Source: Neisseria weaveri
GTDB taxonomy: Bacteria; Pseudomonadota; Gammaproteobacteria; Burkholderiales; Neisseriaceae
Length of the DNA: 64,000 nucleotides
Direction: 5' to 3'
Assembly (NCBI RefSeq): GCF_900638685.1
Contig: NZ_LR134533.1
Coordinates: 2,108,001-2,172,000 of the forward strand
The translations under genes and the position numbers were made by a program. This document shows, in pieces, positions 17,140 through 64,000 of the stretch. Within the stretch, counting starts at the first letter, position 1; each line of letters begins with the position of its first letter. Under the pieces are notes generated by a model, which was given only the letters and a program-made list of their open reading frames with translations, searched no databases and was not told the DNA's origin.

Positions 17140-18477
17140 TTAAATCCAACCGAGCGTATTGGCAAAAACCAACACAATGGCAATCGGCGTCAGATAGCGC
17201 AGCGCGTTATACCAAAGCTGCGGAACCAAAGCCGGCATCGTGCTGCCCGAACGCATATGGTTTATGACGGTATGGCGGTCTTGAACCCAAGCCACAAACA
17301 GCGAAATACACAGCGCACCCACAGGCATAATCCACGCCGTAATCAAATAATCCCAAAGATCAAACACCGTTTTGCCGAACACCGTAAAATCCTGCATCAC
17401 CCCGAACGACAAGGCCGAAGGAATCCCGACCAGAAAAATAGCCAAACCGATTTGCCATGTGCGGCTGCGCCGTTTGCTTTCATCATTGCGGATAACCGCC
17501 GCAATCACCGTTTCCAACATAGCAAACGCCGAAGTCAACGTTGCAAACGAAACCAAAACCATAAACACTGCAAACAGCACTTCGCCGAACGGAATATGCT
17601 GGAACACCGCAGGCAGCACCACAAAAATCAGCCCCGGCCCCTGATCCGGCTTAAAGCCGAAGGCAAAAACCGCCGGAAAAATCACCAAGCCCGCCAGCAG
17701 TGACACCAACAGATTCAGCCACATCACACTATTGGCCGAACGGAACACATCCTGCTTCTCCCCCAAATACGCAGCATAAGTAATCATGGCCGACACACCC
17801 AAGCTCAACGCAAAAAACGCCTGACCCAAGGCCACCAGCATCGTTTGTGGATTAAAATAATGCCAATCCGGTTTCAGCAGAAACTCCACCCCGGCCATCG
17901 CCCCCGGCAGGCTGACCGAGCGCACAACCAACACCAAAAACAAAATAAACAGCGCCGGCATCAAATACTTATTGGCCTTTTCAATGCCCCCCGAAATGCC
18001 GCTGCGCACCACCCAAACCGTCATCAGCATAAACAGGCCCTGATAAAACAGCACACCCCGAGGATCGGCAATCGTTTGCCCGAACAGCGCCCCGAAATCC
18101 GTTCCCGCATCAACCGAACCGCTAAACGCATGCACCACATAATTCAAAACCCAGCCGCCGACCACGCTGTAAAAAGACAGCAAGATAAAGCAAGCCAGCA
18201 CACCCAAACGCCCGACCCAATGCCAAAGACTGCCCGGCGCCAACGTTTTAAACGCATCAACCGCATTCTTACCGCTTTTACGGCCGATATAAAACTCAGC
18301 CAGCAAAACAGGCAAACCGATTAACACGGTAAACAGCAGAAACAGCAGAAAAAAGACAGCGCCACCGTTGGTACCGGCGGTATAAGGGAATTTCCAAATA
18401 GCACCCAAACCGATGGCCGAACCGGCGGCGGAAAGGATAAAGCCGATTCTGGAAGACCAAGAAGCGGATGTTTTCAT
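17140..18477 (-). CDS. Sodium-dependent transporter, NSS/SLC6 family
   Basis: Inner-membrane sodium symporter of 445 residues with about eleven hydrophobic spans. TM1 carries the NSS signature GSAIGLGAIWKFPY, followed by NGGAVFFLLFL and GLPVLLAEFYIG. Bacterial members move amino acids or related amines; the substrate cannot be read here. I start it at 18477 (MKTSASWSSRIGFIL) because family similarity begins there and AAGG lies nine bases upstream. An open frame to 18591 only adds non-family residues. The region upstream is AT-rich and ends at the tandem DUS array. Confidence 0.9.
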   Translation of the reverse strand: MKTSASWSSRIGFILSAAGSAIGLGAIWKFPYTAGTNGGAVFFLLFLLFTVLIGLPVLLAEFYIGRKSGKNAVDAFKTLAPGSLWHWVGRLGVLACFILLSFYSVVGGWVLNYVVHAFSGSVDAGTDFGALFGQTIADPRGVLFYQGLFMLMTVWVVRSGISGGIEKANKYLMPALFILFLVLVVRSVSLPGAMAGVEFLLKPDWHYFNPQTMLVALGQAFFALSLGVSAMITYAAYLGEKQDVFRSANSVMWLNLLVSLLAGLVIFPAVFAFGFKPDQGPGLIFVVLPAVFQHIPFGEVLFAVFMVLVSFATLTSAFAMLETVIAAVIRNDESKRRSRTWQIGLAIFLVGIPSALSFGVMQDFTVFGKTVFDLWDYLITAWIMPVGALCISLFVAWVQDRHTVINHMRSGSTMPALVPQLWYNALRYLTPIAIVLVFANTLGWI

Positions 18478-18794
18478 AAAATTTGCCTTAAACAGGAAAA
18501 ACAGGCACGACATGCCCGAAAAAATAAAACGGCAGACGGATAATGTTGGGGCCGTCTGAAAAAAAACGGCATATTTTAACAAGCCGTACAAAGAGATGTA
18601 AATTCAAGTGAAGCGCAGGAAACTGCCGTTATACGCCGTATTCATTTTATTTTATTTATTTTTATTGCGAATATTTTAAAATTTATGATTTTATATTTTA
18701 AAAATTCACATTATATTGAACAGTAATTTTTAGTAGGAGAATGAGCTTGATACGAACCGCTTTTTAACAAGGCCGTCTGAAAACCAACCGCGTT
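18478..18794. other. AT-rich intergenic region upstream of the SLC6-type transporter
   Basis: About 320 bases with no gene. The segment about 18640-18720 is almost pure A/T (several TTTTATTT and ATTTTAAAA runs) and could carry the transporter promoter, but I cannot place -35 and -10 boxes with confidence. A DUS at about 18771 faces the first unit of the array, making an inverted pair with a loop of about a dozen bases. Confidence 0.4.
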
Positions 18795-19226
18795 TTCAGA
18801 CGGCCTAAAACTTTCAGACGGCCTAAAACTTTCAGACGGCCTAAAACTTTCAGACGGCCTAAAACTTTCAGACGGCCTAAAACTTTCAGACGGCCTAAAA
18901 CTTTCAGACGGCCTAAAACTTTCAGACGGCCTAAAACTTTCAGACGGCCTAAAACTTTCAGACGGCCTAAAACTTTCAGACGGCCTAAAACTTTCAGACG
19001 GCCTAAAACTTTCAGACGGCCTAAAACTTTCAGACGGCCTAAAACTTTCAGACGGCCTAAAACTTTCAGACGGCCTAAAACTTTCAGACGGCCTAAAACT
19101 TTCAGACGGCCTAAAACTTTCAGACGGCCTAAAACTTTCAGACGGCCTAAAACTTTCAGACGGCCTAAAACTTTCAGACGGCCTAAAACTTTCAGACGGC
19201 CTAAAATTCTCAGACGGCCTAAAATT
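18795..19226 (-). repeat. Tandem array of 24 DNA uptake sequences, 18-base period
   Basis: The unit TTCAGACGGCCTAAAACT (the reverse complement of the AG-DUS plus a 6-base spacer) is repeated head to tail with an exact 18-base period. I counted 24 copies, the first at 18795 and the last at 19209. The first 23 DUS cores are perfect, the last begins CT instead of TT, and a 25th decayed unit (CTCAGATGATCC) follows at 19227. All units point the same way. Eighteen is a multiple of three and two minus-strand frames lack a stop in the unit, so a 193-codon frame reading (FRPSES)n spans the array. It begins with TTG, lacks a ribosome site and is probably not a gene. Confidence 0.97.
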
Positions 19227-19325
19227 CTCAGATGATCCGAAAATTTTTAAATTGTCTCGGGTTGTATCGGGAAATTGGATGGTGATTTCCAAATAAGCGT
19301 ATGAATCATAGTCTTTGTGTGAAAA

Positions 19326-19351
19326 AGGCCGTCTGAATTTTCAGACGGCCT
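19326..19351. terminator. DUS hairpin after the AAA ATPase gene
   Basis: Inverted DUS pair with a 2-base loop, 29 bases past the ATPase stop and about 100 bases from the tandem array. Confidence 0.6.
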
Positions 19352-19380: not shown

Positions 19381-20247
19381 TTAATCAATAATGCGTTCTT
19401 CGGGCAGTCTGCCTGCCCAATCGCAGACGAATTGCCAGGCGGTGCGGCCGGAGCGGTTGCCGCGTGCGAGCGACCAGTTTAAGGCTGCTTTGCGTGCGGT
19501 TTCGTCAAAGGGGAGGTTGAAATCATCGAGCCAGTTTTCGACGGCTTGGAGATAGTCGTTTTGGTCAAAGGGGTAAAAGCTCAGCCATAAGCCGAAGCGG
19601 TCGGACAGCGATACTTTTTCTTCGACGGCTTCGCGCGGGTGGACTTCGCCGCGTATGCCGCTTGCGGCTTGGTTTTCGTCCATGTATTCGGGCATGAGGT
19701 GGCGGCGGTTGGAGGTGGCGTAAACCAGTACGTTGTTGCAGCGTTGCGATAGGCCGCCGTCTAGGGCGGTTTTTAGGGCTTTGTAGGTTTCGTCACCGGG
19801 TTCGAACGACAGGTCGTCGCAGAAAACGATGAATTTTTCTTTGCGTTTTTCGAGTATGGGCAACAGGGCGGGCAGGGTGATGAGGTCGGTTTTGTCAACT
19901 TCGATCAGGCGCAGGCCTTGATCGGCGTATTCGTGCAGCAGGGCTTTGACCAGTGAGGATTTGCCGGTGCCGCGTGCGCCGGTCATTAAAACGTTGTTGG
20001 CGGGACGGCCGTTTAAAAATTGTTCGGTATTGCGTACCAGCCGCCGGGTTTGTTGGTCGACTGCGGCCAGGCGGTTGAGCGGAAAGGTGTGCGGCCGGGG
20101 CAGACTTTCGAGTATGCCTTTGCGGCCGATATGCTGCCAGCGGAAGGCGAGGGATTTCCAGTCGGGTTGGCGGTTTTCGGGTGGGAGCAGGGTGTCGAGC
20201 CGTTTTAATACCGAGGCGGCCAATGAGAAGAATTTGGTGGGTTTCAT
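19381..20247 (-). CDS. ATP-binding protein of the DUF815 family (AAA-like)
   Basis: Cytoplasmic P-loop ATPase of 288 residues. Walker A GARGTGKSSLVKAL lies near residue 90, Walker B-like FIVFCDDLSFEPGD near 140, and the sensor segment VLVYATSNRRHLMPEY follows; LSDRFGLWLSF is typical of DUF815. The family is widespread in Proteobacteria and its cellular job is not established. I start it at 20247, where an AGGAGAAAC ribosome site precedes ATG; the frame is open to 20286. It is a single-gene unit with DUS hairpins at both ends. Confidence 0.88.
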   Translation of the reverse strand: MKPTKFFSLAASVLKRLDTLLPPENRQPDWKSLAFRWQHIGRKGILESLPRPHTFPLNRLAAVDQQTRRLVRNTEQFLNGRPANNVLMTGARGTGKSSLVKALLHEYADQGLRLIEVDKTDLITLPALLPILEKRKEKFIVFCDDLSFEPGDETYKALKTALDGGLSQRCNNVLVYATSNRRHLMPEYMDENQAASGIRGEVHPREAVEEKVSLSDRFGLWLSFYPFDQNDYLQAVENWLDDFNLPFDETARKAALNWSLARGNRSGRTAWQFVCDWAGRLPEERIID

Positions 20248-20291
20248 ATTGTTTCTCCTGTTGTTTTGTCGGCTTGAGAATAGCATAAAAA

Positions 20292-47558: not shown

Positions 47559-48128
47559 ATGGCCTTTATCATTGGTTTATTTTTGGATTTGTACTTGCTT
47601 GTTCTTGTGCTTGTCTTGCTTGTTCTTGTGCTTGTCTTGCTTGCTTTTTTGTTTGTCTTGGGTGTTGTGTTATTTGTGAACGTATGGCCGTTTATATTGT
47701 CTTGGCCTTGGATGGAGATTATTTGTGTTTCCGTAGGGATATTGACCGGTTGGCTGATGGCAGTAATGAGATACAGGTTGTCCGATAAAGATAAGTCAGG
47801 TGCATTGAATGACGGAGATGAAAAATTCAAACACTTTGAAGAAAAAATCGACAAATTTGTAGAAAAGGCGGAGTGCCGGTCAAGCCACATCAACAAAAAA
47901 ATGGGCTTTACACGGTCTTTTGTCAGGAAACAAAACATCATAGCTTTAATGATGATGTTGTGTATGTTGGTCTTGAATTGGATACCTGAATCGGTCGTGG
48001 AACAATACCGCTGGTTGAAATCTGCCGTAGCAGTGTATTGGTTGGCGGTAATTGTAATGTTTTTGTGTTTGTGCGCGGTGTTTGTGAAGGGATTTTGGCT
48101 GTGGCTGTTTAAGCGAAATCCGGAATGA
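47559..48128 (+). CDS. Hypothetical membrane protein with a leucine/valine repeat in TM1
   Basis: Protein of about 189 residues with four hydrophobic regions: a very long first one (about 45 residues, dominated by LVLVLVL repeats), then IICVSVGILTGWLMAVM, IIALMMMLCMLVLNW and AVYWLAVIVMFLCLCAVF. A charged, possibly coiled central segment (GDEKFKHFEEKIDKFVEKAE) lies between. The LV stretch is encoded by an in-frame 21-base tandem repeat. A purine-rich AAAAGGGG precedes ATG 47559; an ATG at 47544 is an alternative start. No family recognised. Confidence 0.6.
   Translation: MAFIIGLFLDLYLLVLVLVLLVLVLVLLAFLFVLGVVLFVNVWPFILSWPWMEIICVSVGILTGWLMAVMRYRLSDKDKSGALNDGDEKFKHFEEKIDKFVEKAECRSSHINKKMGFTRSFVRKQNIIALMMMLCMLVLNWIPESVVEQYRWLKSAVAVYWLAVIVMFLCLCAVFVKGFWLWLFKRNPE
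47594..47642 (+). repeat. 21-base tandem repeat inside the hypothetical membrane gene
   Basis: Unit CTTGCTTGTTCTTGTGCTTG plus T, two full copies (47594-47614, 47615-47635) and a partial third. The period is seven codons, so copy-number change would lengthen the transmembrane stretch without shifting the frame. Confidence 0.85.
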
Positions 48129-60768: not shown

Positions 60769-61467
60769 ATGCTCATGCGTTTGAGACAAAACGGTTTTAC
60801 CTTTATGGAGCTGTTGGTTGTCATTATTATTTTTGCAATTATGACAGTCATCGCTCTTCCCAATATGAGCCAATGGATAGCCGCCCGTCGATCAGCGACG
60901 CAGGCGGAAAACATGGCCAATCTTTTGCGCTTCGCGCGTTCGGAAGCCGTCAGGCTGAATCTTCCCGTTTACGTTTGTCCCGTTCAAATTAAGAAAGACG
61001 GTAATCCAGACCAATATTGCAACGCAGCTTATTCGGGGCAAGGTGTGGCAGCATTTGCCGATGTTAACCGCGACAGGATGTATACGCGCAAAGACGATAA
61101 GCCTTTGCGCCATGTTGTAATCAATCCTACTCAAAACAACCGTTTGGATTATATTGTTGAAGCTTATGATTTTGGCAAAGATAAGCCAAAATCGGGCAAC
61201 AATAAATATCAGGCTTGGATTTTCTTGCCGGACGGAACATTCGGTTATTCCGATGCAAAAGGGCCTAAAACGCCGATTGATTTGGAAAACGTTGGTACTG
61301 GCATGATCCGTTTGATTTTAACCGATAAAAAAGCAGAAAACGGCAGTGAAAAACAGGCAAGAGCAACATTGGCAGTCATTGAAAATAACGGCAGAGTGAA
61401 AATCTGCCCAAAATACGAGAAAAATCACTCTGATGCCGGTTCCGCTTTGTGCAAACTTCAATTTTAA
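60769..61467 (+). CDS. pilH: Minor pilin PilH (FimT/GspH family)
   Basis: Prepilin-like protein of 232 residues that helps prime type IV pilus assembly. Class III leader with cleavage after Gly: LRQNG then FTFMELLVVIIIFAIMTVIALP, with Glu at position +5. The GspH pseudopilin domain follows (ANLLRFARSEAVRLNLPVYV). Two C-terminal cysteines (VKICPK, ALCKLQF) probably form a disulfide. First gene of pilH-I-J-K-L, in the same order as meningococcus. Confidence 0.93.
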   Translation: MLMRLRQNGFTFMELLVVIIIFAIMTVIALPNMSQWIAARRSATQAENMANLLRFARSEAVRLNLPVYVCPVQIKKDGNPDQYCNAAYSGQGVAAFADVNRDRMYTRKDDKPLRHVVINPTQNNRLDYIVEAYDFGKDKPKSGNNKYQAWIFLPDGTFGYSDAKGPKTPIDLENVGTGMIRLILTDKKAENGSEKQARATLAVIENNGRVKICPKYEKNHSDAGSALCKLQF

Positions 61468-61514
61468 CGGCGTAGCTTTAAAAGAATAACAATTATCAAA
61501 TAACGGATAATATT

Positions 61515-62228
61515 ATGGATTTTAATAAGGAAAGCAGGATTTTCCCAATAGCGGTAATTCGGGAAGGCCGTCTGAAAACTCAGCAGCAGGGCATGACATT
61601 GCTGGAAATCTTGATTGCCATGTTTGTATTGACGGTAGGTGTATTGGCTTTGCTGGCTACCCAGCTGCAAACTGTAGTTGCCGTAAGAGAGGCTGAAGGA
61701 CAGACAATTGTTGCCCAGGCCGCACAGAATTTGATTGAAGGGATGGCGATTAATCCGGTTTTATGCAAAAACAGTATTCCCGGATGTGAAGATGTTATGC
61801 TTCCTGGTGACAGCGATGATTTGATTCGTCGGAGAAATGATGCGTTCCGCCCCCAGTTAAAGGTTAATTCAAAAAGTGAAACATTAAGTTATCGCTTCTC
61901 AAACCCTATTAAGGTAAGGTCTTGCAGTAAGAATGCTTGGTGTAAAAAAAATAAAACAGACTTGAATAAGCGCCAGATATTGGAAGATCATTTGGGCAAA
62001 TTTGAAGATACTTTATTTAAAGGTTTACCGGAAGCGGATATTTACTACATTATATGTAATGATAAATCAGGGGTAAAACCGACCATTAATAATAATGTAA
62101 TGCAACCTAATTGCAATGGCGGAGCGAAAGACCCGATAAGTATCAAGGTAGCATGGCAACAGAATGTTGAGCGCTCCGATGGAAGCGGCAAGGTTGTTTA
62201 CAGTTATCAAGTTCGGGTAGCAGAATAA
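61515..62228 (+). CDS. pilI: Minor pilin PilI (PilV-type)
   Basis: Prepilin-like protein of 237 residues. Leader ends QQQG, then MTLLEILIAMFVLTVGVLAL with Glu at +5. The residues GRLK in the leader are encoded by an uptake sequence (AGGCCGTCTGAA at about 61565-61576). The body holds several cysteines (VLCKNSIPGCEDV, YIICNDKSG, PNCNGG) likely paired in disulfides. It overlaps the next gene by one base (TAATG), so translation is coupled. Confidence 0.92.
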   Translation: MDFNKESRIFPIAVIREGRLKTQQQGMTLLEILIAMFVLTVGVLALLATQLQTVVAVREAEGQTIVAQAAQNLIEGMAINPVLCKNSIPGCEDVMLPGDSDDLIRRRNDAFRPQLKVNSKSETLSYRFSNPIKVRSCSKNAWCKKNKTDLNKRQILEDHLGKFEDTLFKGLPEADIYYIICNDKSGVKPTINNNVMQPNCNGGAKDPISIKVAWQQNVERSDGSGKVVYSYQVRVAE

Positions 62229-63265
62229 TGATGAAGCAAAAATATACCAAAAACGTCATAGCACCTTGCAAAGACAAAACCGCAATGTCGGGTTTCAGCT
62301 TGATTGAATTTCTGATTGCCAGTGCATTAAGTGTGATTGTGCTGATTGCTGTCGGAACGGGATATTTATCTTCTCGTAAATTGAATGATGGCACTAATTC
62401 CCGTTTAGCCGTGCAACAGGATTTGCGTCATGCTTCCAATATGATTGTTCGCGATGCACATATGGCGGGTTTGTTTGGTTGTTTCAACATGTCGTCGCGC
62501 ATGAGGGCAGATATCGTTGATAATCAGAGCAGTGCTCAAGAAGCATTTAGATTGGCAGGTTCTACCGATTACCTGATTCCTGTTAAAGAAATTCCTGCAG
62601 GTCAATTTTCTGTTAGCGGATTTATTCCTAATTCTCCTGTGTTGGTTTTCCGCTATGGCGTGGGCACGGGATCTATCAATAATCTGACTGAGGATATTCC
62701 TGACAATGCACCTTTGGTTTACGGTAATTGCAATAAATTGGTGAGACCGGCAGCTGACGGCACGGCAGGTGTTGACTTGCAGACGGTATCGGCAGCGTTG
62801 GGAGCTACCGGACAAATACATGATATTTCCGTGATGCGATATGTGGTTCATGCTTATGCAACAGGAACGGTGGGAGGACAACCAGGGTTATATAGATTCC
62901 GATTGGAAAATGGAAATCGTTGGGGATCGCCTCAATTATTGATGAAGCCCAAAGAGATACCTCCATCAATACGGACTTCAAATGATGAAGATCGTATATT
63001 GGAGATGTCGATGGAGTATGTTTACGTAAGTAATTGTCCTGATGGTCATGGACTGTCAGAAAGGTTTGAATACACGACGACCTTAAAAAACAGTATTTCT
63101 GGTGCAACAACTTCAACCGTACCTGCAAATCAGACGGCTTCTCCGGCAATGGTAAGCATCACCATCAAAGAAAAAGAAAATGGAATAGAGACTAAGGATA
63201 CGTTTATTTACAATATTGATGCTTCATTGAAAGGGGGGAATGTATGCGCAGAACGAACATTCTAA
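62228..63265 (+). CDS. pilJ: Minor pilin PilJ (PilW family)
   Basis: Prepilin-like protein of 345 residues, largest in the operon. Leader ends TAMSG, then FSLIEFLIASALSVIVLIAVG with Glu at +5. QQDLRHASNMIVRDAHMAGLFGCFNMSS is the PilW/PilJ hallmark, and the C-terminus ends GGNVCAERTF, as in meningococcal PilJ. It overlaps pilK by 22 bases. ATG 62228 or the adjacent ATG 62231 may be the start. Confidence 0.93.
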   Translation: MMKQKYTKNVIAPCKDKTAMSGFSLIEFLIASALSVIVLIAVGTGYLSSRKLNDGTNSRLAVQQDLRHASNMIVRDAHMAGLFGCFNMSSRMRADIVDNQSSAQEAFRLAGSTDYLIPVKEIPAGQFSVSGFIPNSPVLVFRYGVGTGSINNLTEDIPDNAPLVYGNCNKLVRPAADGTAGVDLQTVSAALGATGQIHDISVMRYVVHAYATGTVGGQPGLYRFRLENGNRWGSPQLLMKPKEIPPSIRTSNDEDRILEMSMEYVYVSNCPDGHGLSERFEYTTTLKNSISGATTSTVPANQTASPAMVSITIKEKENGIETKDTFIYNIDASLKGGNVCAERTF

Positions 63266-63804
63266 AAACAGGCCGTCTGAAATCCAAACAGCAAGAACAG
63301 GGGTTTACGCTGTTTATCGTGATGATGGTAATGATTTTGGTGGCGTTTTTGGTGGTTGCGGCTACACAATCCTACAATACAGAGCAGCGTATCGGTGTGA
63401 ACGATGCAGATAGAAAATTTGCTTTGGAATTGGCAGAGGCTGCATTACGTAAGGGAGAGAATGACATTGTCGATTTTGAAGCGGTAACATTCAGAGCAGA
63501 TTGTCAAGACGGATTATGTGCATCGGCAGGCTCCGCAGCAGTTGTTGTCAACAATCTGACGATTGAAGCAGAGACGGGGAATACCCCTGCCTGGAAGCGT
63601 ATGTGTGATTCCAAGCTTTGTATAGAAACCAATGGTAGAATATATGAAACGGCAGCCAAATTTTCCAGCAAAAAGCCGCGTTACATTATTGAATATATTA
63701 GAACTCAGGACGACGGAGCGGTTATTTTCCGAGTAACTTCCAGAGCATGGGGAAGAAATAAAAATACGGTGGTAACACTCCAATCTTATGTTCAGGTAGG
63801 TTGA
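63244..63804 (+). CDS. pilK: Minor pilin PilK (PilX/GspK-like)
   Basis: Prepilin-like protein of 186 residues. Leader ends QQEQG, then FTLFIVMMVMILVAFLVVAA. Position +5 is Ile, not Glu, as in meningococcal PilK and GspK-type tip pilins. GRLK in the leader is again uptake-sequence-encoded (about 63271-63282). The C-terminus has PRYIIEYIRTQ and WGRNKNTVVTLQSYV, nearly identical in type to PilK. The start lies inside pilJ. Confidence 0.93.
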   Translation: MRRTNILKTGRLKSKQQEQGFTLFIVMMVMILVAFLVVAATQSYNTEQRIGVNDADRKFALELAEAALRKGENDIVDFEAVTFRADCQDGLCASAGSAAVVVNNLTIEAETGNTPAWKRMCDSKLCIETNGRIYETAAKFSSKKPRYIIEYIRTQDDGAVIFRVTSRAWGRNKNTVVTLQSYVQVG

Positions 63805-63805
63805 T

Positions 63806-64000
63806 ATGCATTTCGACAATAAAAAAATTAATACACGGGGATTTACGCTGCCTGAAATGATGGTGGTGGTGGGGATTATTGCTATTCTGTCTATGATTGC
63901 CATTCCCGTTTATACTGGCTATTTGGAAAAAGGCCGTCTGACCATGGCTCAGGCGGAGTTGATGGATTTGAATAATGTTATCCGGCTTGATCGTGTTAGA
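63806..64000 (+). CDS. pilL: Minor pilin PilL/PilX, 3' truncated by the window edge
   Basis: First 65 residues of a type IV prepilin. Leader INTRG is followed by FTLPEMMVVVGIIAILSMIAIP with Glu at +5. KGRLTMAQAELMD follows the hydrophobic stem; the GGCCGTCTGA within it is again a partial uptake sequence. By gene order it corresponds to pilL (gonococcus) or pilX (meningococcus), but the distinguishing C-terminal part is missing. Confidence 0.88.
   Translation, partial: MHFDNKKINTRGFTLPEMMVVVGIIAILSMIAIPVYTGYLEKGRLTMAQAELMDLNNVIRLDRVR

Follow-up and report, generated by a model that had tools for sequence, protein, structure and literature searches.

The window, that is, the whole stretch of 64,000 nucleotides analysed here, contains a tandem array of DNA uptake sequences (DUS), the short DNA tags by which Neisseria recognise their own DNA. 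The array and the features around it are given below in window coordinates.

17140..18477, - strand: gene of the sodium:neurotransmitter-symporter family, the downstream neighbour of the array (ATG at 18477; listed open frame from 18591).
18711..19292, - strand: 193-aa open frame across the array (FRPSES repeats), taken as non-coding.
18770..18806, no strand assigned: stem-loop obtained by folding, formed by the first array unit with a DUS that faces the other way (18772-18781, + strand).
18795..19226, - strand: tandem DUS array, 24 units of 18 bp, each an AG-DUS core and an 8-bp spacer, in one orientation.
19191..19232, - strand: two divergent end units (spacer AAAATT; one mismatch in the final core), then a partial unit, at the array end distal to the hairpin.
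19328..19349, no strand assigned: second inverted DUS pair with a 2-base gap, a terminator-like hairpin behind the ATPase gene, with CTTTTT next on the - strand.
19381..20286, - strand: AAA ATPase gene of the DUF815 family, the upstream neighbour of the array.

Tandem Repeats Finder placed the repeat at 18794-19232, with a period of 18, 24.4 copies, 99% match and the unit TTTCAGACGGCCTAAAAC. The - strand carries 23 exact GCCGTCTGAA cores, at positions 18795 + 18k; each has the AG extension, and the AG-DUS 12-mer AGGCCGTCTGAA is exact in these units. In the 24th core (19209-19218) a single base is mismatched. The 24-unit, 18-bp, one-orientation array described in a first-pass annotation of this DNA was thereby confirmed, as was its position in an intergenic region of about 900 bases (903 bp, from the symporter start at 18477 to the ATPase stop at 19381); the claim that all 24 units are AG-DUS holds for 23 of them and fails for the last core. 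The first 22 units are identical to one another; the two that follow, at high coordinates, have a different spacer. Over the whole window the DUS 10-mer was found 108 times against 0.14 expected by chance. By the Tandem Repeats Finder result the array is a minisatellite, with near-identical head-to-tail units in the size range of 10-60 bp. A CRISPR-type array (unique spacers of about 30 bp between identical repeats) was rejected, as the spacers are 8 bp long and identical in 22 of 23 cases.

The 193-aa frame stays open because the period of 18 is a multiple of 3. A coding reading was rejected after a search of 4142 candidates gave no homologue at E ≤ 0.001, although a repetitive query may be penalised in such a search. 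A mobile-element origin was also rejected: positions 18700-19300 were unmatched in plasmids (near mode) and phages (distant mode) with the low-complexity filter on. Elsewhere in the window, an imperfect 21-bp repeat of 3.4 copies (TTGTCTTGCTTGTTCTTGTGC) lies at 47589-47660, and four type IV pilin-like N-methylation motifs follow one another from 60781 to 63904, at the end of the window, resembling a minor-pilin-type cluster.

The stem-loop at 18770-18806 has a stem of 15-16 bp and a folding energy of -26.5 (+ strand) and -27 (- strand) kcal/mol; none of 200 shuffles was as stable on either strand. It is followed by no T tract, and terminator prediction called no terminator there. The pair at 19328-19349 has CTTTTT after its stem on the - strand, yet it was absent from the terminator-prediction list.

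The host genome is a single contig of 2,238,481 bases. It was searched for triples, defined as three same-strand exact DUS with gaps of 2-30. One strand gave 142 (42 of them assigned by count to the arrays at 2033k, in the window and at 2226k), the other strand gave 24, and a reversed-pattern control gave 0. In a scan of the whole collection with this pattern, one viral contig matched; its repeat sits within a long open frame. The first-pass annotation had implied that the window array stands by itself. It does not: this genome has 12 places where 3 or more exact DUS follow one another on the same strand, and the window array is one of them. Nine of these 12 runs have 10-69 units. The 11 further runs, like the inverted DUS at 18772-18781, are absent from the first-pass annotation. 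The runs, named by position in the genome, are as follows.

398k: 16 units, period 17.
481k: 5 units, 3 of them exact.
577k: 12 units, mixed period of 16-18.
797k: 12 units, period 16.
1322k: 3 units.
1787k: 4 units.
1942k: 15 units, period 17.
1947k: 69 units, period 19.
1979k (1979426-1979801): 22 units, period 17.
2033k: 21 units, period 18.
2127k, the window array: 24 units, period 18.
2226k: 14 units, period 15-16.

Among the nine runs with at least 10 units (periods of 15-19), no two share a majority spacer, and they are therefore separate amplifications. In the short runs (481k, 1322k and 1787k) the spacers are mixed and AT-rich, and some are also present in longer runs. In the 1979k run 14 of the 22 units carry a mutant core, as one block. 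Variant units lie in blocks, often distal to the hairpin and in several arrays proximal to it, which is the pattern expected from stepwise local duplication. Of 23 genes examined beside the runs, 22 matched a Pfam family; most of these families belong to metabolism, transport or DNA maintenance, and no surface-antigen family was among the matches. No bias towards a replication strand was seen, with 7 runs pointing one way and 5 the other (positions against GC skew). The 15-unit array at L123:546-798 (G000:C1:1942546-1942798) starts within a CptA-toxin-type membrane-domain gene, a few bases ahead of its stop codon. Same-strand DUS pairs with gaps of 2-15 numbered 209 in the host genome, arrays included.

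An exact opposite-facing DUS was found within 36 bp of 10 of the 12 runs, nine by script and one (2033k) by eye, because the repeat boundary had cut that DUS. As background, an opposite DUS lies within 45 bp at 377 of 744 sampled DUS sites (runs against background, p = 0.02). Judged by the ATPase, the closest named species was N. dentiae, at 86%, in a contig scan that may omit the record of the window itself. The ATPase-symporter order was found, within 1.5-kb flanks, only in the host genome among 30 loci, and the ends of gyrA and purF were therefore compared instead, each in the best 29 of 45 other genomes. In the 200 bp behind the gene an exact inverted DUS pair was present in 18/29 loci for gyrA and 11/29 for purF, and none of these 58 loci from other genomes had a same-strand doublet or array. 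In the host genome the same 3' ends carry 14 and 69 units, respectively, with one arm amplified at both. T-rich sequence is present at the 577k and gyrA arrays. Given the opposite DUS near the runs and the plain pairs at orthologous ends, the arrays resemble a terminator-type hairpin with one arm multiplied. One arm of an inverted DUS pair of this type is repeated head to tail beside a single opposite arm, and this amplification occurred separately at terminator-type sites. The plain inverted pair is, from these comparisons, likely to be the ancestral state.

The first-pass annotation had proposed a search for DUS runs in related genomes. The genomes searched were one per species, and 25 of the 46 genus genomes were in one or two contigs. 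Exact-core triples were found in 8/46 and runs of at least 10 exact units in 3/46, namely the host genome, G039 (47, 90, 21 and 13 units) and G021 (16 units). Triples were present in 5/25 genomes of one or two contigs against 3/21 of the others; prevalence in draft genomes may be under-counted. Same-strand pairs with gaps of 2-15 occur in 32/46 genus genomes; G008, for example, has doublets and no exact triple. In G039 the AG extension is missing from 135 of 167 scored units (spacers CAAACC and CAACCCAT). In G003 all 16 units of an array of TTCAGACTGC have a core with a one-base variant, and at three G003 loci outside the array the normal core was counted 12 times and the variant 0 times.

When the pattern was relaxed to several DUS dialects, triples were found in 36 of 83 family genomes, many of those listed being scattered motifs and not arrays. 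The relaxed pattern raised the host-genome count from 166 to 183 triples (+17, at least a dozen of them from the mutant-core array) and added 0 in G039; so decayed arrays are not hidden in large numbers. In G063, which belongs to another genus, two decayed arrays of 26 and 17 copies (Tandem Repeats Finder) retain an intact core in 12/25 and 5/15 scored units; the motif is also common nearby. In the drafts G058 and G061 a near-palindromic DUS-like unit of 20 bp forms four arrays (L194, L195, L196 and L197), all ending at contig ends, which suggests that DUS-like arrays break draft assemblies.

These observations are probably best explained by a DUS minisatellite that formed when slippage multiplied one arm of a DUS terminator, is largely neutral and may incidentally affect uptake. 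Intact DUS are not needed for expansion: units with mutant cores expand, as in the 1979k block, the G003 array and the decayed G063 arrays. The seed would be either a doublet of DUS on the same strand or a short direct repeat around an arm, on which replicating strands slip (slipped-strand mispairing); doublets (32/46 genus genomes) and triples (8/46) are available as such seeds. From two or three units, growth would be quick, by unit-by-unit expansion and shrinkage, which would also keep the units near-identical and the arrays young. The arrays would be tolerated because of their intergenic position, being close to neutral. They may incidentally improve nearby DNA as a ligand of the receptor ComP; this side effect is possible since the host genome encodes ComP, a 153-aa pilin (L186:1126-1587, - strand) that matches the minor pilin ComP of PDB 2m3k with E 4.3e-27.

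Core and spacer changes were scored in 23 Neisseria arrays; the 3-unit 1322k run and small runs in G005, G010 (C158), G021 (1108k and 1109k), G028 and G044 were left out. The core holds 7/24 substitutions and 10/46 events of any kind, where 59% was expected, a deficit with p = 0.003 for substitutions and 2e-7 for all events. Such low core variation is what maintenance of the DUS would give, and it counts against pure neutrality. The signal is weakened because all arrays but that of G003 were found via exact cores, because the spacers are rich in T runs and event calls depend on the alignment, and because the two G063 arrays, which were found by the relaxed pattern, show no core-sparing bias (8/13 substitutions in the core). 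Sparing of the cores in the 23 arrays is one argument for a selected uptake hot-spot or ComP magnet, where many DUS per fragment favour binding and uptake and the arrays are kept by selection or uptake bias. The encoded ComP is a second, and a third is the result, cited in the accessible part of PMC2397512, that affinity in a competition assay scales linearly with DUS number. The same portion of that paper also cites no gain in transformation from two closely spaced DUS; further, mutant-core units amplify, persist and reach 14-16 copies, most scored units of G039 lack the AG extension, exact triples are confined to 8 of the 46 genomes of the genus, and the neighbouring genes are mostly of the metabolic, transport or DNA-maintenance kind. 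Selection of this sort is considered unlikely. It is similarly doubtful that the arrays are a kept uptake amplifier, with a few Neisseria lineages marking loci with up to 90 DUS and the benefit holding the cores intact; if this were true, DNA from DUS-array loci would be preferentially captured and shared. Among the interpretations offered by the first-pass annotation, the slippage-prone VNTR or by-product of slippage fits best. The hot-spot or ComP sink is opposed by the mutant cores, the neighbouring genes and the cited lack of gain from two close DUS, and favoured by the spared cores and the cited affinity relation.

Slippage that is blind to sequence predicts non-DUS arrays as well. Repeats were called in 610,481 bases of the host genome, made up of an evenly spaced 400 kb and a contiguous 210 kb chosen for known matches. 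At 5 or more copies and 95% match this sample gave three DUS arrays and 0 non-DUS arrays, with two less perfect non-DUS repeats, and the lack of non-DUS arrays at this threshold in 610 kb counts against slippage. The evenly spaced 400 kb held no such array, DUS or non-DUS, and all three DUS arrays came from the contiguous 210 kb chosen for known matches, so the comparison says little on DUS specificity. Same-strand doublets were fewer in this sample than the genome-wide count predicts. A diverged non-DUS repeat of 15 bp x 28 (77% match) at L145:12950-13373 of the host genome looks like a pentapeptide-repeat gene. In 200 kb each, G008 had no near-perfect array and G039 had one, a perfect non-DUS 18-bp x 42 array (L174:1282-2043; G039:C1:2751282-2752043) in a 652-aa open frame with KQAEAA repeats near its N terminus. 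Expansion driven by hairpins was tried and rejected: in DNA folding of 20 units (19 DUS, 1 non-DUS) both strands folded no better than shuffled tandem units.

The non-DUS array of G039, with a unit of the same 18 bp, bears on growth driven by transformation, in which incoming array DNA and the resident array recombine in misaligned register, so that uptake expands the arrays. ComP and the dense DUS of the genome would provide for this, and the homogeneous array interiors fit frequent unequal exchange. The G039 array and the occurrence of mutant-core arrays speak against it, and it is judged quite improbable.

As RNA of the - strand (GCCGUCUGAA direction), positions 18795-18866 of the window self-fold into a long rod. 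Five tandem units gave -42 kcal/mol, a z of -3.6 relative to shuffled tandem units, and with DNA parameters no effect was seen. This folding, together with an array end about 320 bp before the symporter start, would suit a regulatory VNTR in which array length or transcript folding tunes expression. A z of -2 or lower on that RNA strand was obtained for 3 of the 19 DUS units tested, and the other runs adjoin unrelated genes, several at convergent gene ends; a regulatory role is very improbable on these grounds. An assembly artefact is scarcely credible, because the assembly is one contig and its nine long runs have different units; triples also occur in four further genomes assembled into one or two contigs, and the arrays of drafts G058 and G061 end at contig ends, as real repeats do.

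With slippage on one terminator arm as the preferred explanation, DUS arrays are a real, repeated and apparently undescribed pattern, best seen as minisatellites made of DUS, and it is the class of arrays, more than the single array of the window, that deserves attention. A self-recognition signal can become a minisatellite. Arrays of 10 to 90 tags are natural substrates for asking if the number of DUS at a site matters for uptake and ComP binding, or only the presence of one, a question on which the accessible text of PMC2397512 cites two partly opposed results. Published DUS counts may include arrays. DUS-array loci are possible markers for strain typing, and they can break short-read assemblies.

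The statement of the first-pass annotation that no such array had been described agrees with a literature search, which found no published description in the titles and abstract openings among the matches listed, subscription literature lying mostly outside its range. DUS arrays are likewise unmentioned in the accessible portions of PMC3630211, PMC2397512, PMC1852404, PMC7371117, PMC8758062 and PMC11316581. They are also unmentioned in PMC8354546, where 3,996 DUS are counted in N. musculi.

Three known systems come close to the array. It shares the AG-DUS dialect, being exact in 23 units, in a genome where AG precedes 679 of the 800 DUS counted, arrays included, in the stretches sampled and the receptor ComP is encoded. 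Known DUS are described, in the text available from PMC2397512 and PMC1852404, as single or in inverted pairs, whereas the window array has 24 direct tandem units at a fixed 18-bp period. For three pathogenic Neisseria genomes, Table 5 of PMC1852404, within its accessible part, lists 0 and 0, 0 and 0, and 1 and 1 same-strand pairs at a distance within 10 nt, against the 209 of the host genome (gap 2-15, arrays included). Inverted DUS pairs acting as intrinsic terminators were described by Kingsford et al., 2007 (PMC1852404, accessible text). The opposite DUS and the first unit form a hairpin like theirs, of 15-16 bp, and plain forms lie at 29 of the 58 gyrA and purF ends, whereas the window array multiplies one arm. 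With bacterial minisatellites and VNTR loci the DUS arrays have in common a short unit repeated head to tail, near-perfect copies, intergenic position and block-wise variants; they differ in that the unit is a functional genome-wide signal and that one genome holds several independent loci.
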